Below are positions 8,614 to 62,418 of a DNA stretch of 64,000 nt, in pieces. The DNA is from Sulfurovum sp. (GTDB lineage: Bacteria; Campylobacterota; Campylobacteria; Campylobacterales; Sulfurovaceae): the NCBI GenBank assembly GCA_027062365.1, contig JAMOTK010000044.1, positions 1 through 64,000 on the forward strand, read 5' to 3'. The position numbers and the translations under genes were made by a program. How positions within the stretch are numbered: the stretch's first letter is position 1; each line of letters opens with the position of its first letter. The notes beneath the pieces are model-generated. The model was not told the DNA's origin, made no database searches, and saw nothing but the letters and a program-made list of their open reading frames with translations.

Positions 8614-8901
8614 TTAACAATCCTTATTATTCTTATCATACTCACGATGATTAAGCAATGCTACAAAATACGCAGTGTCTTCTATCTGAGTAATCAAAAT
8701 TCTATACTGTGTATTTGGCACAGTAATAGACCATCGGTGCTTATCTTTTTTACAGATAATTTTGTGATACCTTAGTGATGGTTCTTTTGGATTCTCTATA
8801 AACATATCTTCTGTTTGAATAATAATATTTTTATCAAGTTTATGTGCTTTTAAAATCTTTTTGACTGTTCGTTCATAGCGTGGTCTTTTAATGAGCTTCA
8901 T
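8614..8901 (-). CDS. RelE/ParE-superfamily toxin-like protein
   Basis: This 95-aa basic protein has the RelE/ParE/YafQ layout: an N-terminal helix with many lysines, then strands RWSITVPN, YRILITQI and AYFVALLNHREYD. The closing arginine-rich strand followed by HREYD is the usual end of RelE-family mRNA interferases. Such toxins cut mRNA on the ribosome; ParE relatives poison gyrase instead. The start overlaps the end of the upstream 129-aa gene by 14 nt and lacks a clear Shine-Dalgarno, which suggests translational coupling, as in toxin-antitoxin pairs. The fold call is reasonable; toxicity is inferred. Confidence 0.65.
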   Translation of the reverse strand: MKLIKRPRYERTVKKILKAHKLDKNIIIQTEDMFIENPKEPSLRYHKIICKKDKHRWSITVPNTQYRILITQIEDTAYFVALLNHREYDKNNKDC

Positions 8902-9277
8902 TATGAGCCATGAGTGCTTCTTTTGATGCTAAAAGTGCTTGAAGAGACATACAAGAAGTTTCCATTTTATTAAAGGCATAGTAAATGGGATAGTTATACC
9001 ATTTATTTATCTCTTGACTTTCTAAGAGTTCGCTACTATAATCTGTTATTTCTTCTAGTTTTAATAAAATATTATCAATTTTTTGTGCATTATCAGCACC
9101 AAACAAAAAGAGGTACTTGTCTATATTTTTAATACCTCTTTGAAAAAAATTATTCATATTATAAAGTTCTATGAATGTTAAGAAATAGGCTTTACTAGAA
9201 TCAAATAGTTTAGTATTTGAAGAGGATTTTAAAAGACTTATATCAAATATTAAAGGGTTTTCTATTATGACTGTCAT
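8888..9277 (-). CDS. Unrecognised protein upstream of the RelE-like gene, candidate antitoxin
   Basis: I do not recognise this 129-aa protein. It begins MTVIIENPLIFD, is mildly acidic and largely helical, and shows no helix-turn-helix, ribbon-helix-helix or Phd/YefM motif that I can see. It has a good AAGGAA ribosome-binding site, and its 3' end overlaps the RelE-like gene by 14 nt. That order, upstream partner then toxin with overlap, is the common antitoxin-toxin arrangement. The length exceeds most RelE antitoxins (70-95 aa), so it could be a new antitoxin type or an unrelated gene. Confidence 0.55.
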   Translation of the reverse strand: MTVIIENPLIFDISLLKSSSNTKLFDSSKAYFLTFIELYNMNNFFQRGIKNIDKYLFLFGADNAQKIDNILLKLEEITDYSSELLESQEINKWYNYPIYYAFNKMETSCMSLQALLASKEALMAHNEAH

Positions 9278-14868: not shown

Positions 14869-17800
14869 TTAACTCAATATCCTATCAAACATCTTCCCAA
14901 CATAACCATTCTTATCATCTTGTTGGAATAATACATTTTTATCTTCTAACTCTGATTGTTCTAATGTATCTTGAACCCATTTTATTACACCGTATGGAGT
15001 TACTGAAACTATAAATGAGTTTAGTATTACATCTTCATCGTTGAGCTTTTCTTCTATCTCTTTTATCTTAATAGATAAGTTGATTTTAGGGTCATCTTTA
15101 GTGTTTAGATTTACTAAGCCTTTAGGGTCTATAAAACTAATGTATTGCTTATCATCTTTTTTTATCCACATAATGAAATCTGGATAGAAGTTACCCTCTG
15201 TAAAAAAGCCAAGACCCGTTTTACTTTGATTTCTAAGTAGGTATATCTCTGTATCTTTATAAGTAGAACTGTTTCGCTTCAAGTAGCTATCTAAATCTTC
15301 AACAAAATCTTTTTCGCCATCATTTAGTTCTATGGGTTTTATCTGTAAAGCTGTTTCGCCTTTGTCTTTGAATACAAGAGGGTTATATAAGTGTTTATCA
15401 AATGAAAAAGCACTGAAATTCTTCTTAGATAGCTTATGAAGTTCAGCATCATCTATTACACCACTCTCAAGCATAGTTCTAAGAGCTTCTAACCTATCTA
15501 TAAGCTCTTTATTAACTTTATTGCCACTTTCATCTTCCTTATCTTCTACTGTAATGGTATAGTTATCTATTAAGTTGGCACGGTCTCTTGTCTCGTCCAA
15601 TTCTCTATATTCTAAAAATTGGCTCTCCCATTCGCTCTTTTTATACTCGTAAAATGACTTCATATATTTTTTAAGTAGTGTAATCATAATAGTTTCAAAG
15701 TTAGCAAGGTTTTTGAAGCTATTCACTTTCATATCATCTTTTGGGATATAAAGCTTATACCAATCTTTTCTATCAAGTAAATCTTCTATATCAACTTTAG
15801 ATATATTTAGATTACTCCAACTTTTTTCATTTTTGAACTGTTGGAGTGCGAAAAATATATTATCAATACTCATAAAGCTCAAGTGTTCTTTTTGAAGTAT
15901 CTCACTGTTTAAGTCATACTTGTTTCCAGTTCTGTTTTCACTTTCCAATATATCCACTTGTTTATACAAGCTCAACACAACTTTTTTACTGATACCTCTA
16001 ATATCGCTATACTCTAAATCAAGCTTCACTTCTCTTTTGAAATCTTTACCCTCTTGTAGGTCTAACACTTTTAGTTTTTTAGTTTTATAGCTCTTGTCAT
16101 AAATCAAAGGTAGAATAAATTCCACTCTTTCATCAGTAGGAACACCCTCATCTTTTAGGTAGTCCTTAAAAGCTTTCATATAATCAGCTTTTAGTCCAAA
16201 TATATTCAGTGTTTCAACTGCTTGGTATTTTCTCTCTAACTCTTTACCTCTTATAGCTCTACTTCTTTTTAGGCAAAAGTCATAACCTTTAAGTCTTACT
16301 CCACGACCAAAAAGTTGAATAATCTGAGACCCCTCTTTTTTCCCTATATTCATAAGCCCCATTGTGGATACTCTCCAAGAACTCCAACCTTCACTAAACT
16401 TTTTTGAACCTATAAGTATATTTAGGTTTGAAGTAGTGTTATTTATAGTCTTGAAAAGTGAGCTTGAAAAATCTCTACTGCTTACAGTGATACCATTAGC
16501 TTCACATATTTTTACAAGTTTATCACTATCGCCAACATTGATAACACCAAAGTGTTCATTCTCCCCAATTTTAAGTGCTATCTCTCCATCTACACCTTTG
16601 AGGTTTTCTAAATGAAGTATTCCGTTAGTTGCATTAAAGATAATATTTAACATATCATCAAAAAGTTGAGAAGCATTTAGTTTTGTATTTTCTAAAAAGC
16701 CAAACTTGTTTTTAAATATATCTACACCTTTTGTAGTTTGAAGACCACTATCAAAGCTCAAAATCTTTTCTATATTAGCGATACTCTCACTCTTGCTTTT
16801 AATAAAATCATCTATAAACAACAATACATCAACTACATCAGATACTTGCTTTTTACTCTCTGTTCTAACGGCATTTACACTTGAACCTACAAAGACCATA
16901 AGAGGCTTCTCTATAAGATAAGGTTTCAACAAACTCTTTGAACTCTCATATATCTTCATCTGTTGATAAAAGCTAAGAAGTGAAGCTGTTAAGTAAGTCT
17001 GTTTTATATCCTCACTATCTTCACTTAGATTTAGTATAGAGTAATCTTTACCATAGCCATCATTATAAAAATACTTATAGCTATAATCAAATATGATAGC
17101 CTTAGTATATTCATTTTCTAAATCAGTTTTCTTTTTACCAGTGCTACTGTTTATAGCTTGAGCAAAAGTCGCTGAGTATTCAAAAGCAAAACCTTTTTTA
17201 CTTAGCTTATCTCTATTGGTTTTCCATTTATCCCCACTACTTCCACGGTGTCCTTCATCTATAAACACAAGGTTACACTCTTCAAAACTATCAACGGCTA
17301 CTGTTTTATCTCCGTTTTCTTCTCCAAGTTTTGTTATCTCTATAATCTGGGTAGCATTACTTTCAAAAAGTCCTTTACTATCTTTTGAAAATATCTCAGC
17401 TCTCATATTTGAAGCTTCAAATTCTTCTAAATGCTGATTTGACAATCCCTCGTTTGGAGTAATAAGAACAGTTTTATTGATTTTGATTTTACCCTTAGCA
17501 TAGTGGTTAAACTGTAATAAATTCATTTGAAGTAAAAGTGTTTTACCTGAACCAGTAGCATTATATAATGCAAGTTTGTTTAGCTCTGTATCGTTATATT
17601 CAGTAAGCTTCTCTTTGTTACTATCTATCGTAGTATTGAACTCTTTGAGATAAGTATTTAGGTCTTGAAGTAGTTGCTCTTTATCTTCAAAATATTTATC
17701 TAAGTAAATCTCTACAAATAGCAGTGATAGGTATTGGAAGTATTTCCACTTGATACCACGACCCATAGTCTTAGTGTATCTTACTATATTTTCATCATAC

Positions 17801-18000
17801 TCTTGAAGCTTATCATCACTTATGATTTTGTGTGTGCTTACAAGTTTATCTTTGAGTTCGTGATAGAAAAGTGAGTTATCATTTTCATCAAGTTCTTCAA
17901 GTCGTGAAGCTTTTAAGTCTTTTGCTAACTCTTCAAAATTATCAACTCCAAAAAGTGATAGTAGATAAGAGTTTAATACTAATTTTTCGTTAAATTTCAT
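14869..18000 (-). CDS. Type III Res-like helicase-nuclease of a four-gene defence cluster
   Basis: This 1043-aa superfamily 2 protein has Walker A ATGSGKT near residue 150, a DEGH box (FIDEGHRG) near 248, and a helicase C-terminal part with FGRGVRLKG (motif VI). The C-terminal PD-(D/E)xK-type nuclease motif is PD near 940 (YPDFIMWIK) and DPKG near 958. This is the build of type III restriction Res subunits: ATP-driven translocation plus DNA cleavage. It is the last gene of a minus-strand cluster and overlaps the AlbA_2-type gene by 11 nt. Because two further proteins are encoded with it, it should not be read as a plain two-gene type III system. Confidence 0.8.
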   Translation of the reverse strand: MKFNEKLVLNSYLLSLFGVDNFEELAKDLKASRLEELDENDNSLFYHELKDKLVSTHKIISDDKLQEYDENIVRYTKTMGRGIKWKYFQYLSLLFVEIYLDKYFEDKEQLLQDLNTYLKEFNTTIDSNKEKLTEYNDTELNKLALYNATGSGKTLLLQMNLLQFNHYAKGKIKINKTVLITPNEGLSNQHLEEFEASNMRAEIFSKDSKGLFESNATQIIEITKLGEENGDKTVAVDSFEECNLVFIDEGHRGSSGDKWKTNRDKLSKKGFAFEYSATFAQAINSSTGKKKTDLENEYTKAIIFDYSYKYFYNDGYGKDYSILNLSEDSEDIKQTYLTASLLSFYQQMKIYESSKSLLKPYLIEKPLMVFVGSSVNAVRTESKKQVSDVVDVLLFIDDFIKSKSESIANIEKILSFDSGLQTTKGVDIFKNKFGFLENTKLNASQLFDDMLNIIFNATNGILHLENLKGVDGEIALKIGENEHFGVINVGDSDKLVKICEANGITVSSRDFSSSLFKTINNTTSNLNILIGSKKFSEGWSSWRVSTMGLMNIGKKEGSQIIQLFGRGVRLKGYDFCLKRSRAIRGKELERKYQAVETLNIFGLKADYMKAFKDYLKDEGVPTDERVEFILPLIYDKSYKTKKLKVLDLQEGKDFKREVKLDLEYSDIRGISKKVVLSLYKQVDILESENRTGNKYDLNSEILQKEHLSFMSIDNIFFALQQFKNEKSWSNLNISKVDIEDLLDRKDWYKLYIPKDDMKVNSFKNLANFETIMITLLKKYMKSFYEYKKSEWESQFLEYRELDETRDRANLIDNYTITVEDKEDESGNKVNKELIDRLEALRTMLESGVIDDAELHKLSKKNFSAFSFDKHLYNPLVFKDKGETALQIKPIELNDGEKDFVEDLDSYLKRNSSTYKDTEIYLLRNQSKTGLGFFTEGNFYPDFIMWIKKDDKQYISFIDPKGLVNLNTKDDPKINLSIKIKEIEEKLNDEDVILNSFIVSVTPYGVIKWVQDTLEQSELEDKNVLFQQDDKNGYVGKMFDRILS

Positions 18001-19171
18001 TGGTGCTACTTCTTGGTATGATACATTTAAATTGTTCTAACTCTTTATCATTAACAAACTCTACATTTGGGTTAATATCTATCACTCTTTGTATCCCACT
18101 TCCATAACCTGTATAAGCCAATATATTTTCACAAATAGAATTTAAGATAGGATTTCTACAAATTGACCTACCTGTTTTTATATTTTCTACAGTCAAAGAG
18201 TTGGTTAATTTACCTGGGCTAATTATCTCTACTCTATTGTGAAAAATAAAAATTTTAATAGATGAATTAATATAATAATCTCTATGAATTAAAGCATTAG
18301 TTATTAACTCGCCAAACACTCTTTCATCTATCTCCAAAACACCATTAGAGTTAAAATCTTTTTCAACTTGTCTATGCCTTAGGTTGCTTTTTACAAAATT
18401 CATACTATCCTCATAAAGTTTTTCAAATGTACCTAGCATTCTTTTCTTTGATATAAATTTATTGACAAAAATTTCATTACCATCAAAATAACAACAATCT
18501 ACATAAAACATAGGAGAAAATCTTTGAGGATTTATACCAAATATTAAATTTCCTGCCAAAGTTAAATGCTTATCTCTTAAAATCATCTCATTGTCTAAAA
18601 TACTTTCAAGATTTAAGATACCTTTTTGAAGTTGTTTAAAAATATTGATATTCTTTTTTTCTAAATAAAAATAGTACAACTGTTGATTCAAATCATTGAT
18701 GCTTGTTTTTGGAAGTATCTCTTCATCAGCATATAAGCCTTTAGGTTCAGAAAAGAGTCTTTTTAACTCTTCATCAGACATTATTTTTTTATCTGCACCA
18801 CTTTTAGTATAATAAATGCCACTACTTGTCTTATAAGGTTTTGAATACCCACTCTCTATAGTTACAATAACCAATCTTTTACCATCAATAGTAATATTTT
18901 GAGTGAGTGGATGAATAGGTGGTTTTACATTTTCTTGACCTACATTACCTACTAATTGTCCTAATCTTTCTATCTCTTCTTTTTCTAAACCAATAATATC
19001 TTCATCATCATTTACCCCAAAAATAATAATCCCACCACCTGCATTAGAAAAAGCCACAAACTCTTTAGCTAAATCTTTAGAAGATATTATTTGTCGCTTA
19101 AACTGTGTATAGCTATCTTCACCATTTGATATTCTCTCTATCACTTCTATTTCATTCATATCATTCTCCAA
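17990..19171 (-). CDS. AlbA_2 (Schlafen-type) domain protein with C-terminal ATPase-like region
   Basis: This 393-aa protein has an N-terminal AlbA_2 domain (about 10-130: EDSYTQFKRQ, FSNAGGGIIIFGVND, GIYYTKSGADKK), a putative nucleic-acid-binding fold related to Schlafen cores. The C-terminal part, with ELITNALIHRDYY and GRSICRNPILN, is of the HATPase_c_4/RecG-like type often annotated as transcriptional regulator. In this setting it may regulate or take part in the defence system. It overlaps the methyltransferase gene by 11 nt and the Res gene by 11 nt, so all are translated together. The molecular role is unknown. Confidence 0.75.
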   Translation of the reverse strand: MENDMNEIEVIERISNGEDSYTQFKRQIISSKDLAKEFVAFSNAGGGIIIFGVNDDEDIIGLEKEEIERLGQLVGNVGQENVKPPIHPLTQNITIDGKRLVIVTIESGYSKPYKTSSGIYYTKSGADKKIMSDEELKRLFSEPKGLYADEEILPKTSINDLNQQLYYFYLEKKNINIFKQLQKGILNLESILDNEMILRDKHLTLAGNLIFGINPQRFSPMFYVDCCYFDGNEIFVNKFISKKRMLGTFEKLYEDSMNFVKSNLRHRQVEKDFNSNGVLEIDERVFGELITNALIHRDYYINSSIKIFIFHNRVEIISPGKLTNSLTVENIKTGRSICRNPILNSICENILAYTGYGSGIQRVIDINPNVEFVNDKELEQFKCIIPRSSTNEI

Positions 19172-22097
19172 ACATCAACCTCTTAAACTCTTGTTCTATC
19201 AACTTCACTTTAAAACTATCTTCATCTTTTTGTAAATTAGCCAAATTGTTATCGCCATTTACAAAGATAGTATCAAACTCTCTATCATATACAGACCAAT
19301 CCATTTTTTTAAAAAACTCATTTAGCTCATCACTACTCTGTCCATCTCTCCAAATGATAAGAATTTTCTCTTTTTTGAGGTTTTGCCCCTCTATTACAAG
19401 ATAGCCTTTTAGTAGTTCTATTCGTTTTACTACAAGCCCTAAGAGGTAGTTAAATGTTTCTACTAAGTCAATATCTGTATCTTTTGTCTCTCCCACACTT
19501 GACGAAGCAATTTTAAGTTTATAATCAAATGGAGTGTTAAAAGTATCTATATTTAGAAGTGAATCTTGGCTCTCCACATCTAAAGAGTAGTTGAGTATAT
19601 AATCTTCTTTAGCTTGAGGATAATAATCCATAGTTTTTTGTTGTGCTTCTGTCTTTTTAAACTCAAGATTATTTAGTGTGTCTTCATAGCTTTCAAGTTT
19701 GAAGTATTTGAAGATACCACCATTAATAATAGATTGAATTCCATTACTGTTTCCATATAATGTATATTTCATTCTTTTTAATGTTAATGTATCAAAATAT
19801 TCTCCCATTTCAATACCAATATATTTTTTACCAAGTTTATGAGCTACAGAAGGAGTTGTTCCACTTCCCGTAAAAAAATCTAACACGATACTGTTTTCTG
19901 ATTTTTCACTTGATAAATTAATTACTCTATTTAGAAATTTTTCGGGTTTTTTCCCAGCTTTTAATTTTACATTACCTTCTTTAGCTATTCCTGTCCAAGC
20001 AATATCTGTCCATAAAGAACCTTGTTCCTTTACAATTAAATCTTTTCCCTCAATATTCATAATATTCTTAATATAAAATCTTACCATTCTTCCTTTATAG
20101 CATAGAATATCATCTTTTACTTCTCTTATATAACTATCCCAAGTTGTTATTTTTGACTTTTCCATAGCTTCTTTTAATCCACCACCAGCACCTTTAGGGG
20201 CGATTGTTTGGAATATTCTATAAGCATTGTCTATATAAAATTTTGTAGCTTTTTTAGGAGTTGGATTTTCTCCTAAAGTTGCTTTCATAACATTATTAAC
20301 TGTATCAACATTCCAATTATGATAATCTTCTTCGTCAATATTTAACACAATTTTATTATATGCTTTATCATAATCTCTTTCTGTCCAAATTGGAATATAT
20401 TTTCTTGAACTATAATTTTTAGCATATAGTAAGCCATATTCACAATTTTTCGGCATAAAAGGATTTTGAAATTCCTGAGCAGCTCCCTCATTGGATTTGA
20501 CTTCTACCGTTTGAATATAATTTGTTTCATCAAAAACCAAATCTGATATTTGCTTAAATCTAAAAAATTCATTATCATCAATACTACTAAAAATAATTCC
20601 ACTATTACTCATTAAATTCTTGGCATACGATAACCTATCAAATATAAAACTCATCCAAGAACTATGTTTATATCTATCATTATATAAAAAACCATCACTT
20701 CCAGTATTATAAGGTGGGTCAATATATACAGTTTTTATCTGCTCTTTGTATCTATCTTGAAGTAAGTTCAATGCTCCAAAGTTTTCACTGTTGATAAGCA
20801 CTCCATCTATATCTTCATCAAGATTATCAAACTCACTTAAAAGTTTATACTTGAATTTCATATCAAAAAACTTAGTGTCTAATACAAGATATTTTTCTTC
20901 TTCTAAGTCCTCAATACTTTTAACATCTACATTAAAAAGCTCTTTCCACTCTGCTAACTGCTCATCACAAGCAAAGATTTCTTCATAGTAATCTTCATCA
21001 ATTTTATCAAGAGTGATACAGTAGTTAGTTTCTATAACAAACTTTTTCTTTTCCCATAGTTTCTTTTGAAGCTCTTCAAGTTGAGTAAGAAATGAAATCA
21101 CTTTTTGAGATACATCTTTGAAGATTTTAATCTTACCCATAACCTCTTCATACTTGATAGGACTGTCCATAATGTCATCTAAGAACAACATCTCATTCTT
21201 TATGTAGAAGTCTAACTCTCTGCTTAAAAAACCACCTAAATCTTTATGTATAAAGTAGTCAAAAGAGTTTCTGCTTGTGTAGCTTTTTAGGTGCTTTTCA
21301 AATATGGTTCTTTTTTTGTTTTTCTGCGTTGGGGCTAACTCATTTAGTCCTGTTATAAACTCTATATTTTCAATATCCTCTAAAGCTTTTTGTATAGATT
21401 CTTCATTGAGTTTGTCCTGATTTATCTTGCCTACTGATTTGTACTCAAAATTTATATTAAGTTCATTTGGTGAAGCTAAAGCATCACTTCCGATATAGAT
21501 AAATCTTCTCTCTTTATCACTTGTGGCTTTGTTGTTATTGCTCTCTGTTTCGGCATCACTAAGTTTGAAGTGTATAGTTTTGTCATTTACAGTAAAAGTA
21601 TAATCTCTAAAATACTCTCCACTTTTTATATAGTATTGGTCACTATTTGCCCAATGAAGCTTGACCTCTTCTCCCTCGTAAGGTATAGCATAAGTGTCTT
21701 TTTTGTATCGTCTTAGGCTTACAAAATCCCCATCTTTGTAGTATCGCCTAAAGAAGTTGGCTAAGTGTGAGAATACTTCATTTTCAAGGTTGTTAGAAGA
21801 AGTTGTTGAAGAGAGTTGTTCTCTAAGTGCTATAACTTTTGGAAGTGTTTCGGGGTCTGCTCCAAGTGATTGTGCTTGTTGTATCGCTTCATCTAACTCT
21901 TTTTGTATAGAGTTGTTATCATTTGAACTAAAAGCACTTGCTACACTTGATAATAAGTCTTTATCTAAGAACTCATTTATCTCTTTGCTCTTAGTGTTCA
22001 TAATACGGTAGATACCAAAGTCTAAATCACTTTGGTCAAGTTGGAATATCTCGTTTAGTATTTTTAATAATTTCTTTTGATTTTCAGTTTGTGCCAT
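19161..22097 (-). CDS. Large beta-class DNA methyltransferase (type III Mod-like)
   Basis: This 978-aa SAM-dependent N6-adenine or N4-cytosine methyltransferase has the catalytic motif DPPYNTGSDGF near residue 460 and the SAM-binding motif FFTGSGTT near 739. Motif IV before motif I is the beta-class order found in type III Mod enzymes. The protein is about 300 residues longer than usual Mod subunits, with an extra N-terminal 400-residue region and a C-terminal extension that may hold target recognition or partner contacts. It abuts the SNF2-type gene directly (adjacent stop and start) and overlaps the next gene. It would protect host DNA and mark self for the two helicases. Confidence 0.85.
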   Translation of the reverse strand: MAQTENQKKLLKILNEIFQLDQSDLDFGIYRIMNTKSKEINEFLDKDLLSSVASAFSSNDNNSIQKELDEAIQQAQSLGADPETLPKVIALREQLSSTTSSNNLENEVFSHLANFFRRYYKDGDFVSLRRYKKDTYAIPYEGEEVKLHWANSDQYYIKSGEYFRDYTFTVNDKTIHFKLSDAETESNNNKATSDKERRFIYIGSDALASPNELNINFEYKSVGKINQDKLNEESIQKALEDIENIEFITGLNELAPTQKNKKRTIFEKHLKSYTSRNSFDYFIHKDLGGFLSRELDFYIKNEMLFLDDIMDSPIKYEEVMGKIKIFKDVSQKVISFLTQLEELQKKLWEKKKFVIETNYCITLDKIDEDYYEEIFACDEQLAEWKELFNVDVKSIEDLEEEKYLVLDTKFFDMKFKYKLLSEFDNLDEDIDGVLINSENFGALNLLQDRYKEQIKTVYIDPPYNTGSDGFLYNDRYKHSSWMSFIFDRLSYAKNLMSNSGIIFSSIDDNEFFRFKQISDLVFDETNYIQTVEVKSNEGAAQEFQNPFMPKNCEYGLLYAKNYSSRKYIPIWTERDYDKAYNKIVLNIDEEDYHNWNVDTVNNVMKATLGENPTPKKATKFYIDNAYRIFQTIAPKGAGGGLKEAMEKSKITTWDSYIREVKDDILCYKGRMVRFYIKNIMNIEGKDLIVKEQGSLWTDIAWTGIAKEGNVKLKAGKKPEKFLNRVINLSSEKSENSIVLDFFTGSGTTPSVAHKLGKKYIGIEMGEYFDTLTLKRMKYTLYGNSNGIQSIINGGIFKYFKLESYEDTLNNLEFKKTEAQQKTMDYYPQAKEDYILNYSLDVESQDSLLNIDTFNTPFDYKLKIASSSVGETKDTDIDLVETFNYLLGLVVKRIELLKGYLVIEGQNLKKEKILIIWRDGQSSDELNEFFKKMDWSVYDREFDTIFVNGDNNLANLQKDEDSFKVKLIEQEFKRLMFGE

Positions 22098-24971
22098 TTA
22101 TATAATCTCCCATTGGATTGTAAATAATTCATTAGTTGTAATTGTTTGTTCTTTTGCTTTTTTAAGTTCTTCTATCAACTCATCCCTTTGTTCTTCAATC
22201 TCTTCTTCAATATCAAATATCTCTCGCTGACACTTTCTTCTTTTCTTCTCTTGTGCTTTTATTTGAAGCTGTATATCCGTTTGTTCTGCTAAGTTTTCAG
22301 TGTTTATACTTTGGCGATTTAACTCTTTGATTTTAGCTTTTGTATCTTTTAACTCTTTTTCAACAGTTACTAATTTATCCTCAGCCCACTTATGTAGTTT
22401 GGTGCTTTGGTTTATGAAGTGAGTTTGATTTGTTGTTTCATTTTTTCGTAGGATTATATCTTTTTGTTTTAGGTATTCATATTCTAACTTTTCAGTGTCG
22501 TTAGTGTCTATATTTACCTTTGTATTAAGTGTAGCTTCAAGAGATAGTAGCTTTGTAGCAACTTCTTCATTTAGTAGTTTATAATCGCTTGTAAGTGCTG
22601 TAATGATTACATACTCTTCAGTATCATAAGACTGTATAGATACTTTTGTAGCTTTGAGAAAACCTCTTTTACCTTTGTAGTCATCAAGAACAGATATTTT
22701 GTATTTGTTGTGTGTAAGGTCAAAGATAAGTTTAGTCTGTTTTAACAATCGAAGTTTAGCTCTATCAATTACTTCTTCTCCAAGTGAGCTGTTTAGTCTA
22801 TAAGTATGAGCATTTTGATTTGGGTTTGTTTTTGAAGCTGATATAAGTTGATACTGATTGCCTTTATAAGAAAACTCTTGTTTGTCATCATCAAATGTAG
22901 CTTTATCACTTAACTCTGCTTTTGTAATATCCCAGAATACACTTGAAAACCTATCTACTGTTTCATTGCTTCTTAGTGCTGTATCTTTAAGTCTTAAATG
23001 AACATCTTCATCAAAATTGTCTAAGAGTGATTGTCTTGTTTTTAGAGTTGTTTCTTCTATCTTCTCACTCATCTCATCTTGAAGTTCATTAAAGGCTTCT
23101 TCTATGGCTTTATCATCTCTACAAGTTTCATATATTTTTTGTATTCTTGTTTGAAAATCAACACCACTTTCAATACTTCCAAGCACTTCATCAGAAGCAC
23201 CAAAAACACCCTCAAATAGATTAAACTTAGTTGATAGTAGTTCATATACTCGTCTATCAGCAGCATTTTTCTTATTTAAGAAATTTATAACAACTACATC
23301 AAACTTTTGTCCATATCTATGAACTCTACCTATTCTTTGCTCTATTCGTTGAGGGTTCCAAGGTAGGTCATAGTTGATAAGCATATTACAAAACTGTAAG
23401 TTTATACCTTCACTTCCTGCTTCAGTAGCTATCATAATAGAAGCTTCACTAGCAAAATAATCAACTATGGCTTGTTTCATATCAGCACTTTTTGAGCCTG
23501 TTGCTCTATCACTATCTTTATGCACATCTACCCAAGCTTTATATATCTCTTTTGATTTTGGGTCTGTATTTGTGCCATTGAACAATACAACTTTATCAAG
23601 AAATCCATTATCGCTAAGGTAGTCAAATAAAAACTGTTGAGTTCTTCTACTCTCTGTAAAAATAATTGCCTTTTGGTCTTTTACACCAAGAGTTTCTTGA
23701 GCTTCAAAACCTTTAGTTAAAGCACTTAAAAGTGATTTTGCTTTGGTATCTATCTCTATTATTTTTGCCAACTCTATAAATGTTTCAAGCTCTCCTATCT
23801 CTTTTTCAATAGCTTCTATATCATCATCAAGTAGTCTTACTTCTTGAAACGGTATGTCTGCTGGTGCTTCACTCTCTTCTTCAAGATAATCTTCTATTAG
23901 TTCATCTTCATCATCAGTTATAAGCTCTAAATCTTCCCCAGTTATTCTTTTCTCTACTACCATTTTTCTAAGTCGTTTGATAAATGTAGTAAGAGTTCCC
24001 ATAATGGCAGTGGTAGATGAAGCAAGTAGTTTTCTAACAACTAAAGTGATAAGTGTTCTTTGTGCTAAGGGTATAGAGTATAAATCTTTACTGAGCATAA
24101 AATCAGAGATTAAATCATAAAGAGCAATTTCTTCAGAGGAAGGTGTAAATTCTTCAACTATTGGTATTCTCTTTGTGTAGTTAATATACTCCACTACATC
24201 TTTTCTGAGAGTTCTTTTTACTATTGGTTTTAGTCTATCCTTTAGGTCATTCATATCGCTTGTAGTTAAGGCAGTTGATGAGAACTGTTTAGCAAAAGAC
24301 TTTTTGTCTCCAAATACAAAATCATCTATAACACTTACAAGACCAAAGATTTCAAGTAGAGAGTTTTGAAGTGGTGTAGCAGTGAGTAAAATCTTTTTAG
24401 TATCTCTTAGAGCATTGGCAATAGCAAATGACATTTTTGCTTTTTCACCACGGTGGTAGTTTCTCATCTTGTGAGCTTCATCTATAACACAGAGTTGAAA
24501 ATCTGCTAAAAATAGTGCTTCATTGTGTCTTGAAGCAAAGTGATAGGAAGTGATAACTATCCTATCTTTTTGTTCAAAAGGATTTTTATTACCTTTGGCT
24601 ACTTCTTCTTTATAGCTCTTACCATCTAATATAAAACTATCTAAAAAGAACTTCTCTTTTAGCTCCATAGACCACTGCTTTCTAAGGCTTGATGGTACTA
24701 TGATAAGTATCTTTCTTCTTCTCTCACTCCAATACTGAGTTAATACAAGACCAGCTTCAATAGTCTTACCTAATCCAACTTCATCTGCTAATATAACACC
24801 ACTTGACAAAGGCGACTTAAAGGCAAAAAGAGCTGCTTCAACTTGATGAGGGTTCAAGTCTATCTGAGCATTAAAGATTGACTGAGACAGTCTGTCAATT
24901 GAATTAGCACTGTTTTGAAGTGTTAATATTTGGGCATAATATTTTGAGTGGTATTGAGTGAAGTTGATAAT
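22098..24971 (-). CDS. SNF2/RapA-type helicase of the defence cluster, probable ATT start
   Basis: This DEAD/SNF2-family ATPase has Walker A ADEVGLGKT, a DEAH box (IDEAHKMRN), and the helicase C motif GSEGINLQFC with QRIGRVHRYGQ. Its coiled-coil C-terminus is rich in Glu/Lys. The shortest reading begins at a TTG (24857) inside the conserved LNPHQVEAALFAF segment, which cannot be the true start. The same frame stays open upstream through FTQYHSKYYAQ, a sequence I would expect in this family, back to a stop near 24990, and it contains no ATG, GTG or further TTG. An ATT at 24971 lies about five bases after AGGGG and is my preferred start, giving 957 aa. It is first in the four-gene operon. Confidence 0.75.
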   Translation of the reverse strand: MINFTQYHSKYYAQILTLQNSANSIDRLSQSIFNAQIDLNPHQVEAALFAFKSPLSSGVILADEVGLGKTIEAGLVLTQYWSERRRKILIIVPSSLRKQWSMELKEKFFLDSFILDGKSYKEEVAKGNKNPFEQKDRIVITSYHFASRHNEALFLADFQLCVIDEAHKMRNYHRGEKAKMSFAIANALRDTKKILLTATPLQNSLLEIFGLVSVIDDFVFGDKKSFAKQFSSTALTTSDMNDLKDRLKPIVKRTLRKDVVEYINYTKRIPIVEEFTPSSEEIALYDLISDFMLSKDLYSIPLAQRTLITLVVRKLLASSTTAIMGTLTTFIKRLRKMVVEKRITGEDLELITDDEDELIEDYLEEESEAPADIPFQEVRLLDDDIEAIEKEIGELETFIELAKIIEIDTKAKSLLSALTKGFEAQETLGVKDQKAIIFTESRRTQQFLFDYLSDNGFLDKVVLFNGTNTDPKSKEIYKAWVDVHKDSDRATGSKSADMKQAIVDYFASEASIMIATEAGSEGINLQFCNMLINYDLPWNPQRIEQRIGRVHRYGQKFDVVVINFLNKKNAADRRVYELLSTKFNLFEGVFGASDEVLGSIESGVDFQTRIQKIYETCRDDKAIEEAFNELQDEMSEKIEETTLKTRQSLLDNFDEDVHLRLKDTALRSNETVDRFSSVFWDITKAELSDKATFDDDKQEFSYKGNQYQLISASKTNPNQNAHTYRLNSSLGEEVIDRAKLRLLKQTKLIFDLTHNKYKISVLDDYKGKRGFLKATKVSIQSYDTEEYVIITALTSDYKLLNEEVATKLLSLEATLNTKVNIDTNDTEKLEYEYLKQKDIILRKNETTNQTHFINQSTKLHKWAEDKLVTVEKELKDTKAKIKELNRQSINTENLAEQTDIQLQIKAQEKKRRKCQREIFDIEEEIEEQRDELIEELKKAKEQTITTNELFTIQWEII

Positions 24972-25038
24972 ATTACCCCTAATTATTTAATGTTTTACAT
25001 TTTAGCAAAATAAGACTAATTAACATATTATTAGCAAG

Positions 25039-25268: not shown

Positions 25269-25352
25269 TGGTGCACCAGAGAGGATTTGAACCTCCACGC
25301 CGCGAAGCACGAGCCCCTCAAGCCCGCGTGTCTACCGTTCCACCACTGGTGC
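25269..25352 (-). tRNA. tRNA-Leu (anticodon GAG)
   Basis: The minus strand folds as a class II tRNA. The acceptor GCACCAG pairs with CTGGTGC. The anticodon loop is TTGAGGG (anticodon GAG), a long variable arm contains a TTCG loop, and the T-arm has GGTTCAAATCC. The 3' CCA is encoded (25269-25271). It should read CTC and CTT codons. It is transcribed in the same direction as atpE upstream. Confidence 0.95.
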
Positions 25353-55580: not shown

Positions 55581-56555
55581 CTATATACTAAAATCAAAAT
55601 AATATATACCTTCATCAAGTAAAGATATATTAATATCAGTTCTTCCATATTTATTTAAGTCATCAATAGATACTCTTTCTCCTAAAGGAACACCTAATCT
55701 ATGTCTAAGATATTCTCCCATTAAACTTTTTTTAGGAAATGAGCTAAATTTATTTGGATATTTTAATTTATTTTCAATTTGACTACCTTCAAGTAATCCA
55801 TTCATAGTAATTCCATCATCCCAAATAATTTCAATAATATCATTATGTCTGTTGGAACGACCACCCATATTAGTCATTGTTGTAAAATCTTGTTTTGGTG
55901 GAAATAAATTTGGATATTGTCGTATATATTCTTTTCTAATGACAAGACAAGCGTCATTGGGAGCTGTGTGTGCATTACCTTGACCCCAATTTAAACCACT
56001 TTTTAATTGAACTACTCCAGTTCTACTGTCTAATAATGATATTCTACAAAATTCCCTTGAAATTTGAATACTAGGTGTGTTAATAGTGTTAATACCATCT
56101 TTAACTTCTTGAATATCTGTACAAAGTATTGAGTTTTTCATCACTCTGTTTATATACTCATCTAATGGATTGAAAGTATCAAAAGTAGTTTCTGCTAATA
56201 TTTCTCGGTAAGGTGTAGTTAATCCATTTGTAGAAAAATTAGCTGAACCAATTAATGCATGTTGTATTTGTTTTTTATTTTTCCATATATAACATTTAGA
56301 ATGAATAGGAACAGTTGAATAATATATATTAATATTTGGTATATTGAGTTGGTGAGTTATCAAGGCTGTATGTAACCTTTTTTGAATACCTCTATCTCCA
56401 TACATTCCATAAATTACAGTACTATTTAATGGTAAATCTTTTAATCTTTCGACAGGATTTGGACCTAAATATCCAGATAAAATAATTAATTCATCAGAAC
56501 GAACTGTTTGATGTCTATGAAATATGATTTCTTCTAAGTTTGTATTAAATAACAT
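55581..56555 (-). CDS. NgoFVII-like PLD-family restriction endonuclease
   Basis: This 324-aa protein has an N-terminal phospholipase-D-type nuclease domain with the HxK motif HSKCYIW (H85, K87) and GSANFSTNG (S104, N106), matching the RE_NgoFVII group. This fold cleaves DNA without metal through a covalent histidine intermediate, as in BfiI. The C-terminal 170 residues (LNWGQGNAHTAPNDA, SNRHNDIIEIIWDDG) probably recognise the target, as the B3-like domains of BfiI/EcoRII do. It starts on the stop codon of the upstream methyltransferase (TAATG overlap), so it is made only after the modification enzymes. Specificity is not deducible. Confidence 0.8.
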   Translation of the reverse strand: MLFNTNLEEIIFHRHQTVRSDELIILSGYLGPNPVERLKDLPLNSTVIYGMYGDRGIQKRLHTALITHQLNIPNINIYYSTVPIHSKCYIWKNKKQIQHALIGSANFSTNGLTTPYREILAETTFDTFNPLDEYINRVMKNSILCTDIQEVKDGINTINTPSIQISREFCRISLLDSRTGVVQLKSGLNWGQGNAHTAPNDACLVIRKEYIRQYPNLFPPKQDFTTMTNMGGRSNRHNDIIEIIWDDGITMNGLLEGSQIENKLKYPNKFSSFPKKSLMGEYLRHRLGVPLGERVSIDDLNKYGRTDINISLLDEGIYYFDFSI

Positions 56556-57778
56556 TAAAAATACCTTTGTAATAAAATATCTATAGATTGAGCAATTTTT
56601 TTGGATAATAGAGGTGGGACAGCATTTCCTATCATCTTATAACACGCCCCTTGACTTCCTATAAATTCAAAATCATCATCAAAAGTTTGTAACCTTCCAG
56701 CTTCTCGTGGTGTAATACTTCTTGCTTGTTTATAATCAGGGTGTATATGATACAACCCATCTTTATATAAATGAGCTGTAATTGTATTACTTTGTTTATT
56801 ATAGTCTAAAACATTATATTTATGAAATGAGGATTTTTTACCAGTTTTTTGAAAATATAATGCTCGTAATGAGTCTTTATCAGGATATTTTTTTGAACCA
56901 TTTTGTACATCTAAGGCTAATTCATTAAAAATTTCTATATCTCTTTGACTATGAAATCTTGGAAAATGATTTTTTATTTTTGATTGATTATAATGAGATA
57001 CTCTTTTTTGATTTGCTTTTTCATCTTCACTTAATGGATACAGTGCTTCTAAATCTCCAATAGATTCTTTTACGGTAATTTTCTTTTCTACTTTAAAAGA
57101 GGGTAAGATATTTAAATAAAAATCATTTAGAATATCTTTTGGATTATAGCTAGTAAGATTTTTATTTATTCCAATAATAATAACTCTTTTTCGTACTTGT
57201 GGCACTCCATAGTCTGATGAATCTAATAAAGAAACTTCTTTTAGCTTTTTTGTGATTATATATCCCTCTTTTTCAAAATCCTCTCGTATTCTATCAATAA
57301 TATGAATACCATCAGGTTTTGCACTCAAAATTCCTTGTACATTTTCAAAAACAAATAATTTAGGTTTAAACTCTTTGACTACTTTTAAATAATTTTCAAA
57401 AAGATAATTTCTATAATCACATTTCATATCATTTTTATCTTGTATTCTTCCAGCTATTGAGTAGGCTTGACAAGGAGGACCACCAATAATTACATCAATA
57501 GTTGTATTTTTAATTAGCTTTTTTAAGCCTATATGTTTTCCATACTCTTCATCATCAAAACCATTTAAAAGTTCTTCCATTCTTTGTATATCAAAATGTA
57601 AAACTTTTGCATCTAAATTATCTAATCTCCATTTAGTTTTTAGTCTATTTTTCAATGTATTAACAGCATTTTTATCCCATTCTACAAAAGCAAAGGGTTT
57701 ATATTTATTGGTCTGTTCAAAACCATCGGTTAAACCACCACAACCAGCAAATAAATCTATATAATTATATTTTTTCAT
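56555..57778 (-). CDS. C5-cytosine DNA methyltransferase (second of the pair)
   Basis: This 407-aa m5C methyltransferase has motif I IDLFAGCGGL, motif IV with the nucleophile C103 in GGPPCQAYS, motif VI ENVQ, motif VIII QVRKRVIIIG, and motifs IX/X RLQTFDDDF and MIGNAVPPLL. The variable target region lies between VIII and IX. It differs clearly from the other methyltransferase (length, target region). Two m5C enzymes would be needed if the recognition site is asymmetric. It overlaps its upstream neighbour by 4 nt. Confidence 0.9.
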   Translation of the reverse strand: MKKYNYIDLFAGCGGLTDGFEQTNKYKPFAFVEWDKNAVNTLKNRLKTKWRLDNLDAKVLHFDIQRMEELLNGFDDEEYGKHIGLKKLIKNTTIDVIIGGPPCQAYSIAGRIQDKNDMKCDYRNYLFENYLKVVKEFKPKLFVFENVQGILSAKPDGIHIIDRIREDFEKEGYIITKKLKEVSLLDSSDYGVPQVRKRVIIIGINKNLTSYNPKDILNDFYLNILPSFKVEKKITVKESIGDLEALYPLSEDEKANQKRVSHYNQSKIKNHFPRFHSQRDIEIFNELALDVQNGSKKYPDKDSLRALYFQKTGKKSSFHKYNVLDYNKQSNTITAHLYKDGLYHIHPDYKQARSITPREAGRLQTFDDDFEFIGSQGACYKMIGNAVPPLLSKKIAQSIDILLQRYF

Positions 57779-58836
57779 TTATTTAAAATCTTTTTTAATT
57801 GAATTGCAATATGATAGCCTAATAAAGGAGGTACAGCATTACCTACTTGTCTATATTGTTGTGTTTTTGTACCTAAAAATAGAAAATTATCAGGAAATGA
57901 TTGTAGTCTTGCATTCTCTCTTACTGTTGGGACTCTATTAAATTTATAATGGAAATGATTTCCGTGTCCTGTATCTATTGTTTTTGATGGTTTCTGACTA
58001 TGGTATCTTGTCCAAGCTTCATTAAATTTTCTATGTTCTCCTACACCTTTTGGTAAATCTTTATGATTTCCACCCTCTGGAACTTGTGCAATAACATTTT
58101 TTACAATTTCAGTATGATTAACACTTATATGATTATAAACATATTTAGATTTTTGTCTCATATTTTTTTGATATTGAGATGTAGGTTTTGTTATATAGCT
58201 ATTTTCTACTATTCCTAAATTATCTTCTAATGTTGGTAAATCAGAAATAGCATCTTCACAACCAATATAATTATCTTTATCTAAAATTGCTTTTGGAAAT
58301 TTAAATGCTATATCTTCTTTATATAATCCAACAAAAAAGAGTCTTTTTCTAATTTGTGGTACTCCATAATTTGGAGCATATAATACCTCGGAATTATAAA
58401 TATAATTATTTTCATCAAAACTTTGTTCTATCTCTTTTTTTGCTTTACCTTTATACAAAGTAGCTAAACCAGTTACATTTTCAATGATAATAGCTTTTGG
58501 CTTTTTCTCTAAAAGTTTAGCTATTTTAAAGACAGAATAAAAAAGCTCATTTCTTTTATCATCTTCTTTACGAGAACCCGTAAGAGAGAAACCTTGACAA
58601 GGAGGTCCCGCGATAATTACATCAACACCCCCTTGATTATCAAGAAATAAAGCTATTTTTTGTAAATTTTCTTCTATGGATAAATCAAGATTAAATACTT
58701 CTGAGTTTTTATGATTATGTTTAAATGTATCTAACGCTATTTTTTCATTATCAATACCTAAAACTACATCATATCCTGCTTCTTGAAATCCATAAGAAAA
58801 TCCACCACATCCTGAAAATAAATCTAATACTTTCAC
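57775..58836 (-). CDS. C5-cytosine DNA methyltransferase (first of the pair)
   Basis: This 353-aa m5C methyltransferase starts with GTG and the motif I sequence LDLFSGCGGFSYG. It has C80 in GPPCQGFS, ENVTG (VI), QIRKRLFFVG (VIII) and QVGNAVPPLL (X). It is first in the three-gene cassette and has an AAGAAGGA ribosome-binding site. A 45-nt gap separates it from ttcA and must hold the promoter. Early expression would protect host DNA before the nuclease appears. Confidence 0.9.
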   Translation of the reverse strand: MKVLDLFSGCGGFSYGFQEAGYDVVLGIDNEKIALDTFKHNHKNSEVFNLDLSIEENLQKIALFLDNQGGVDVIIAGPPCQGFSLTGSRKEDDKRNELFYSVFKIAKLLEKKPKAIIIENVTGLATLYKGKAKKEIEQSFDENNYIYNSEVLYAPNYGVPQIRKRLFFVGLYKEDIAFKFPKAILDKDNYIGCEDAISDLPTLEDNLGIVENSYITKPTSQYQKNMRQKSKYVYNHISVNHTEIVKNVIAQVPEGGNHKDLPKGVGEHRKFNEAWTRYHSQKPSKTIDTGHGNHFHYKFNRVPTVRENARLQSFPDNFLFLGTKTQQYRQVGNAVPPLLGYHIAIQLKKILNK

Positions 58837-61911: not shown

Positions 61912-62418
61912 TTAACTGTATTTATCAATAAGACTTACTAAAATTTTACCATCAATAAGTTTTATCTTTTTGCCTTCAATAAAAGTATAACACTCTTTAG
62001 TAAAACGACTCGTAGTGACGATATAGACCTCATCTACTTTATATTCGTGCATCAATCCATACATCTCACGCACTACTTTGATAGTCACTGGGGCATTTTC
62101 ATAGCGTTTACACTGTACGATAGCCGATAGATTTTTATATCCAAAAGACTTTTTGTGCATCCAAATATCTACCCCACCATCAGCACCTTTTTTTTCGTTG
62201 CCTGATACTGTCCATCCTGCTTTGGCAAATAACTCCATACTCAAACGCTCAAAATCATCCCATGAAAGACGTTTGAGCTTTTTGATTGTTCTATTACGAG
62301 AGAGTAAGCTTCTAGGGTAAAAATGTTTAAAAAATTGCATTATTTTATAGAAAAAAATGATAAGAAAAAGAAGAAGTATTGCGATAGAATAAGTTTGGAT
62401 ACTGTTATAGTTTGTCAT
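61912..62418 (-). CDS. Membrane-anchored Mrr-like nuclease-domain protein
   Basis: This 168-aa protein has one N-terminal transmembrane segment (TYSIAILLLFLIIFFYKIMQ). An Mrr_cat-type PD-(D/E)xK domain follows: WDDFERLSMELFAKAGW, then GGVDIW (catalytic Asp) and AIVQCKRYE (Q-x-K). It resembles the Mrr-domain proteins that cleave methylated or foreign DNA, but with a membrane anchor it may face the cytoplasm at the inner membrane. No methyltransferase or partner is beside it; flanking genes are core. Confidence 0.75.
   Translation of the reverse strand: MTNYNSIQTYSIAILLLFLIIFFYKIMQFFKHFYPRSLLSRNRTIKKLKRLSWDDFERLSMELFAKAGWTVSGNEKKGADGGVDIWMHKKSFGYKNLSAIVQCKRYENAPVTIKVVREMYGLMHEYKVDEVYIVTTSRFTKECYTFIEGKKIKLIDGKILVSLIDKYS

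Follow-up and report, generated by a model that had tools for sequence, protein, structure and literature searches.

A four-gene operon in the 64,000-nucleotide stretch of Sulfurovum sp. DNA analysed here (the window) probably encodes a type III restriction-modification core together with a RapA-like SNF2 helicase and, as cargo in a slot that separates mod from res, a Schlafen-type AlbA_2/GHKL gene. Type III restriction is usually regarded as a two-gene system, in which Mod methylates one strand of an asymmetric site and Res carries out ATP-dependent restriction, cutting DNA that has two unmodified sites in inverted orientation. Judged from its sequence, the operon is a variant of that system with a cargo slot, and restriction is its presumed activity. 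The four reading frames all lie on the minus strand (window positions 14869 to 24971) and carry the SNF2, Mod, AlbA_2 and Res domains first ascribed to them; they are listed with smaller features in Table 1.

Table 1. Features of the operon and its upstream flank, in window coordinates.
Feature	Position	Strand	Basis or remark
SNF2 helicase, RapA/DrmD-like SWI2/SNF2	22098..24968	-	first in the operon; AUC at 24968 as probable start
Mod, type III beta-class N6 DNA methyltransferase, 978 aa	19161..22097	-	MTase_III, N6_N4_Mtase, motifs
Cargo gene AlbA_2/GHKL, 389 aa	17990..19159	-	Pfam, predicted model, fold matches, alignment
Res, type III restriction subunit, 1043 aa	14869..18000	-	REase_III 660 bits, ResIII, motifs
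Conserved 3' end of mod, TTGATGTTTGGAGAATGA	19161..19178	-	comparison with relatives
Shine-Dalgarno TAGGGG of the SNF2 gene	24976..24981	-	7 nt 5' of the AUC start
tRNA-Leu, upstream flank of the operon, outside the system	25269..25352	-	

The genes are co-oriented, abut or overlap, and are flanked by glmS on one side and by tRNA-Leu and atpE on the other; they form a single operon, as the earlier note had held. Its description of the junctions stands in part. SNF2 and mod meet with a gap of 0 nt, and AlbA_2 and res share 11 nt (17990-18000), but the 11-nt overlap claimed for mod and AlbA_2 is present only if AlbA_2 starts at TTG 19171, and the likelier start is ATG 19159, which falls one base past the mod stop codon and has GGAG 5' of it. 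The helicase, methylase and nuclease motifs are all intact, so the genes have not decayed, and the same architecture is kept in unrelated phyla, so it is not due to chance. Among the relatives found, the nearest belong to Campylobacterota, and several of these are Sulfurimonas. A genomic island at tRNA-Leu was considered and rejected: no copy of the tRNA 3' end was seen in 221 bases around the downstream end of the operon, and, since the gene that follows tRNA-Leu varies among the relatives read and glmS is not nearby, no clean empty site can be defined. Phase variation of mod was likewise rejected, as no simple repeats of the required kind were found, and scans for promoters and terminators gave hits not above those in shuffled sequence.

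Elsewhere in the window, an NgoFVII-type restriction endonuclease and two adjoining C5-cytosine methylases make up a type II restriction-modification set (55581-58836). An 852 aa AAA_13/SMC-type ATPase, of the kind that includes RloC-like proteins, is encoded at 317-2875, and at 61912-62418 a short protein that looks membrane-anchored and has an Mrr_cat restriction endonuclease domain. Two small overlapping reading frames of 95 and 129 aa at 8614-9277 look by eye like a toxin-antitoxin pair and have no Pfam match.

Mod matched 35 PADLOC families, the best of them MTase_III at 653 bits, and it matches the Pfam family N6_N4_Mtase as well as the sequences of the solved EcoP15I Mod and other solved Mods. 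DPPY at residues 460-463 precedes FTGSGT at 742, the beta-class order, and a hypervariable target-recognition region lies at about residues 500-700. There the proteins of loci L003, L004 and L006 show 10-36% identity to that of the window, against mostly 74-100% in the flanks, evidence of target-recognition (TRD) swapping. Res scores 660 bits with PADLOC REase_III and matches Pfam ResIII; it has the motifs GSGKT, DEGH, SAT and motif VI, and a C-terminal PDF at 940 followed by IDPK that fits PD-(D/E)xK, while a sequence search of Res against the PDB returned no match. Res is 86% identical to the window protein in L004 and 51% in L003, and in the latter locus SNF2 and AlbA_2 are 90% and 92% identical; together with the divergence of the TRD, this disparity indicates that parts have been exchanged independently. 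The pair thus resembles the EcoP1I/EcoP15I class in its beta-class Mod, with DPPY, a variable middle TRD and then FxGxG, and in a Res that combines an SF2 helicase with a PD-(D/E)xK-like motif. It differs in that both proteins are longer, in the conserved third gene for an SNF2 helicase, and in the internal cargo slots; mod and res share one operon, with one cargo gene between them in the window and no insert of more than 300 bases in 22 cargo-free loci.

Profiles built from the core proteins found SNF2, Mod and Res genes on one strand in 47 distinct loci, arranged as SNF2-Mod-Res in 37 and as Mod-Res-SNF2 in 10. These loci, drawn from genome contigs, from genome searches in Bacteroidota and Pasteurellaceae and from plasmids, place the three-gene core in Campylobacterota, Bacteroidota, Pasteurellaceae and plasmids; they were collected by SNF2 similarity, which under-counts Mod-Res cousins free of SNF2, and the reading frames of public contigs were called mechanically, some loci being broken or truncated. 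The genome searches in Bacteroidota and Pasteurellaceae found relatives in 13 of 301, 17 of 140 and 25 of 345 genomes. Plasmid relatives occur in 50 records, 32 of them typed as conjugative. An IncF plasmid of E. coli has exactly the three genes, as does a Cupriavidus plasmid. The E. coli plasmid members match PADLOC MTase_III PDLC03646 at 1174 bits and REase_III PDLC03654 at 1651 bits, nearly end to end; the Cupriavidus Mod and Res fit different type III models, so that two or more type III lineages are associated with the helicase. When 298 genomes of the class were searched with Res, a single further close copy turned up, and its contig breaks off within mod. Among open-access papers on type III and SNF2, none was found to describe this set of genes. 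As read from these loci, the conserved unit is the three genes SNF2, Mod and Res. The earlier note had all four genes acting as one unit and proposed conservation of the four-gene order as a check: the three core genes do stay together across the 47 loci, in two orders, while the place of AlbA_2 is a variable slot.

SNF2 proteins are double-strand DNA translocases, and in the one encoded here Walker A, DEAH, TATP and motif VI are all intact. It scores 681 bits with PADLOC DrmD but 156 bits with HmaA, and 685 bits with NCBIfam DrmD_b (NF038318), below the curated cut-off of 950. A predicted model of moderate confidence (pLDDT 72, from an input alignment without plasmid sequences) aligns over its whole length to E. 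coli RapA residues about 120-966 (about 700 residues, Z about 16), which suggests a protein like RapA, the RNA polymerase recycling SNF2 ATPase, minus the N-terminal domain of RapA; it differs from RapA in sitting in a defence operon.

The cluster had been likened in the earlier note to Hma, the helicase-methylase-ATPase system related to DUF499 and type-1 BREX, with PADLOC models suggested as a check. The resemblance is real at the level of ingredients, since Hma too is an operon of SNF2 helicase, adenine methylase and a further NTPase, and HmaA is a weaker match of the SNF2 protein (156 bits). However, none of the four proteins matches HmaC/DUF499 (for Res and AlbA_2, all PADLOC families were inspected), HmaB is not among the best 25 of the 35 PADLOC families of Mod, the similarity of the helicases is distant, and the models that Mod and Res do fit are those of type III. 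That the scan can detect Hma follows from locus L037, a distant control locus with a helicase 27% identical to the SNF2 of the window, which in the same scan gave HmaB at 1176 bits and HmaC at 1072 bits. An Hma identity was therefore rejected, and we consider it extremely improbable, unless a DUF499 ATPase encoded at another place takes part. DISARM was rejected as well: although the helicase is closest to DrmD_b and PADLOC DrmD, it falls short of the DrmD_b cut-off, the methylase is a type III Mod, the other proteins of the operon match no DISARM model among the matches listed, and of the DrmA/DrmB core DrmB is absent from the matches listed for the four proteins and DrmA appears only as a generic helicase match of SNF2. 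BREX was rejected because neither PglZ nor BrxC is among the matches listed for the four proteins; the flanking genes are housekeeping genes. The scans agree with the original view that the operon is neither plain two-gene type III nor DISARM nor BREX, and the conserved SNF2 gene sets it apart from the first of these.

The SNF2 gene might instead be a neighbour in its own right, coding for a solitary DrmD-like helicase of defence that is functionally outside the type III core. We consider this unlikely, given the gapless SNF2/mod junction in the window and the co-occurrence of the three genes in 47 loci, also in the permuted order Mod-Res-SNF2. The observation that favours it comes from L009 (9980-15387), where an SNF2 gene whose product is 54% identical lies directly upstream of a ZorA-like gene and an OmpA-type gene (ZorB-like by eye). 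The helicase can thus join other systems, and it may be shared between them. A protein with an FRG domain and a type III-like Res are encoded in the L009 island as well. In another arrangement, at L121 (11702-15752), an SNF2-Res locus has a C5-cytosine methylase gene and others at the place of Mod.

Counting inserts longer than 300 bases, 21 of the 47 loci have one between mod and res, 8 have one between SNF2 and mod, and 22 are free of both. Identified by Pfam and PADLOC, the cargo is AlbA_2 in the window, L003 and L027; a PHP-SMC (Ppl-like) gene plus AlbA_2 in L004; PDC-M38A/B in L002 and L006, with PemK/MazF also in L002; DUF4143 PDC-S01 in L023; Abi_2 in L024 and L080; an AAA_15 ATPase with an unknown gene in L032; AAA_21 with DUF4276 in L092; DUF1016/YhcG PDDEXK (PADLOC PDC-S02) in L094 and L097; Fic in L099, L101 and L185; DUF3800 in L092 and L104; an OLD-like TOPRIM ATPase in L119; and a cytosine methylase in L121. 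(L080, L104, L121 and L185 stand outside the 47, L185 because its contig ends there and the others because a core gene was unrecognised.) In a Rhizobium plasmid the slot is taken by DUF262, and in a Salmonella plasmid an Abi gene next to an IS element separates SNF2 from mod. The same core with so many different slot genes looks less like a fixed machine of four parts than like a modular chassis for defence, and since about half of the loci hold no cargo, the core can persist without it. Apparent plus-strand cargo in L014 and L016 was rejected, being the antisense of a GNAT-like reading frame on the opposite strand. That GNAT-like gene (TacT-like by eye) itself occupies the slot between mod and res on the minus strand, opposite to the operon (L014, 15942-16457; L016, 15936-16454).

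The replacement of cargo can be followed at the level of single bases. The last 18 bases of mod (TTGATGTTTGGAGAATGA) are identical in the window, L002, L003, L006 and L027, and TATGA comes next; past the cargo ATG, which opens AlbA_2 in three of these loci and PDC-M38A in two, the sequences of the two groups diverge completely. In L004, a near-identical mod end is followed by the PHP-SMC gene. An identical mod 3' end running into unrelated cargo shows directly, in the sequence itself, that replacement was clean. The GGAG inside the last codons of mod sits as a ribosome-binding site for whichever cargo gene follows. What ties the cargo to Mod-Res functionally is its position only.

The AlbA_2 protein matches Pfam PF04326 at 82 bits and also HATPase_c_4, and its predicted model (pLDDT 85) has a Schlafen-type domain at about residues 1-114 and a GHKL ATPase domain at about 217-388. 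The model matches the N-domains of SLFN5, SLFN11, SLFN12, SLFN13 and SLFN14 (Z about 10 over about 105-120 residues), and the GHKL motifs are intact. The Schlafen acidic set, taking the catalytic residues to be those of SLFN13, is incomplete: E14 and D51 are present, but the second Glu of ExxxxE is Q19. This position is Gln in all six members of the window subfamily and Glu in all eight type-I-type homologues aligned, which makes RNase action uncertain and argues against a simple Schlafen RNase.

AlbA_2 is also portable. Homologues 61-62% and 43-44% identical occur outside the operon in L162, L163 and L164, each adjoining a gene for a PHP-SMC ATPase and near housekeeping genes; this pair of PHP-SMC (Ppl-like) and AlbA_2/GHKL genes is a candidate stand-alone defence module. 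L004 holds the pair inserted whole, and the window, L003 and L027 keep AlbA_2 only. The gene in the window could, then, be what is left of a PHP-SMC+AlbA_2 module after loss of the partner, confined today to regulating transcription or without a role in defence, a reading to which the intact pairs, embedded in L004 and alone in L162-L164, and the exchange of the catalytic Glu for Gln both lend some colour. We regard it as doubtful, because the gene is intact, is 92% conserved in L003 and retains its GHKL motifs. Considerably less probable still is that a specific four-gene system requires AlbA_2 as its fourth subunit, in the part of sensor or effector that the earlier note had suggested for it. 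The gene does occupy the slot in four of the six Campylobacterota genomes in which the slot is readable (window, L003, L004 and L027), and its product in L003 has kept 92% identity where Res has fallen to 51%. Yet the same slot holds PDC-M38A/B in L002 and L006 and Fic in L185, 22 of the 47 loci do without cargo, and close relatives live outside the operon with PHP-SMC partners. The earlier note had itself named independent occurrence of the genes in relatives as a finding that would overturn it, and for AlbA_2 this is what is seen.

More distant AlbA_2 homologues (26-31% identical) include genes inside type I loci L165, L169, L171 and L172, between genes that, from their translations, we take to be hsdM, hsdS and hsdR. 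In L165 (2437-13354), a large gene with a SIR2-like N-terminus (a reading by eye), AlbA_2 and a Fic-like gene lie between hsdS and hsdR. Type I loci with embedded genes, such as EcoprrI-PrrC and L165, resemble the present operon in having an accessory gene between restriction-enzyme subunits and, in L165, in the embedded distant AlbA_2 and Fic-like gene; the core here differs, being type III with SNF2. PrrC, an anticodon nuclease, is unrelated. In more than 1000 taxa, BREX and related loci have auxiliary genes for Schlafen RNases fused to a histidine-kinase-like domain, according to a published survey that catalogues them as backup effectors (PMC12839542). The operon differs from those loci in that PglZ, BrxC and BrxX are missing and the host is a type III system.

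The SNF2 gene probably starts at ATC 24968. Position 24971, the end first given for the gene, is an ATT directly before it, and the reading-frame lister, which accepts only ATG, GTG and TTG, placed the start at TTG 24857. In nine distinct close-clade genomes (window, L001, L002/L006, L003, L004, L005, L027, L028 and L043), the conserved (N/K)FTQYH is immediately preceded by an ATC or ATT codon in every case (9 of 9), and an AGG-containing Shine-Dalgarno sequence lies at -13 to -10 of that codon in all nine. ATG, GTG and TTG are absent between the preceding in-frame stop and this codon in seven of the nine; in L005 the stop directly precedes ATT ATT. The two remaining genomes, L004 and L043, carry an ATG in frame at the Shine-Dalgarno edge. 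Codons 3-38 are coding, since their differences from the window, summed over eight relatives, are 75 synonymous versus 19 non-synonymous, and the first canonical codon downstream varies by locus, falling at codon 16, 39 or 55. Relatives in other phyla mostly have ATG or GTG near the same position. Starts of the AUC or AUU kind are rare as a means of regulation, with infC as the main known case. The infC of the window's own genome has an apparent TTG start, not ATT, so the use of AUU or AUC is not common to infC there. In E. coli and Streptomyces, infC starts with ATT and ATC, and IF3 represses such starts (PMC5472188). By analogy, the AUC/AUU start would keep helicase output low, and this output may depend on IF3.

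Taking the operon as a type III core with a RapA-like helicase and a cargo slot, we can propose how it would work. Mod, reading an asymmetric site with the variable region in its middle, would methylate one strand of self DNA. On unmodified DNA, Res, in an ATP-driven complex with Mod, would communicate along the DNA and then cleave. The SNF2 protein, kept scarce by its low-efficiency AUC/AUU start, probably strips proteins off invading DNA or else remodels the complex of Mod and Res, and would so help Mod-Res on DNA that is covered with protein or otherwise difficult. The AlbA_2 protein would be an exchangeable accessory, translated by ribosomes coupled from mod, and most likely a standby effector or regulator that acts once the restriction complex is blocked or failing. 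The idea of such a guard draws on its position in the operon and on the precedent of PrrC, whose gene is embedded in a restriction locus and which fires when restriction is inhibited (PMC12707154). A bolder form of the proposal, which we put forward tentatively and by analogy, makes SNF2-Mod-Res a general chassis and the mod/res junction an evolved docking site, where swappable effectors, coupled to mod and silenced by the intact complex, would fire when phage anti-restriction blocks it; this would be a type III counterpart of PrrC/EcoprrI, with its helicase held low by the AUC/AUU start.

If the operon is what it appears to be, there is a widespread three-gene form of type III system with a conserved helicase, carried also on conjugative plasmids, and with a hot-swap slot for Fic, Schlafen, OLD-like, Abi and PDDEXK genes. 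Such a slot would explain why orphan effectors recur inside restriction loci. Whether embedded effectors guard the restriction enzyme becomes a testable matter, and reading what sits between mod and res would offer a systematic route to new effectors.
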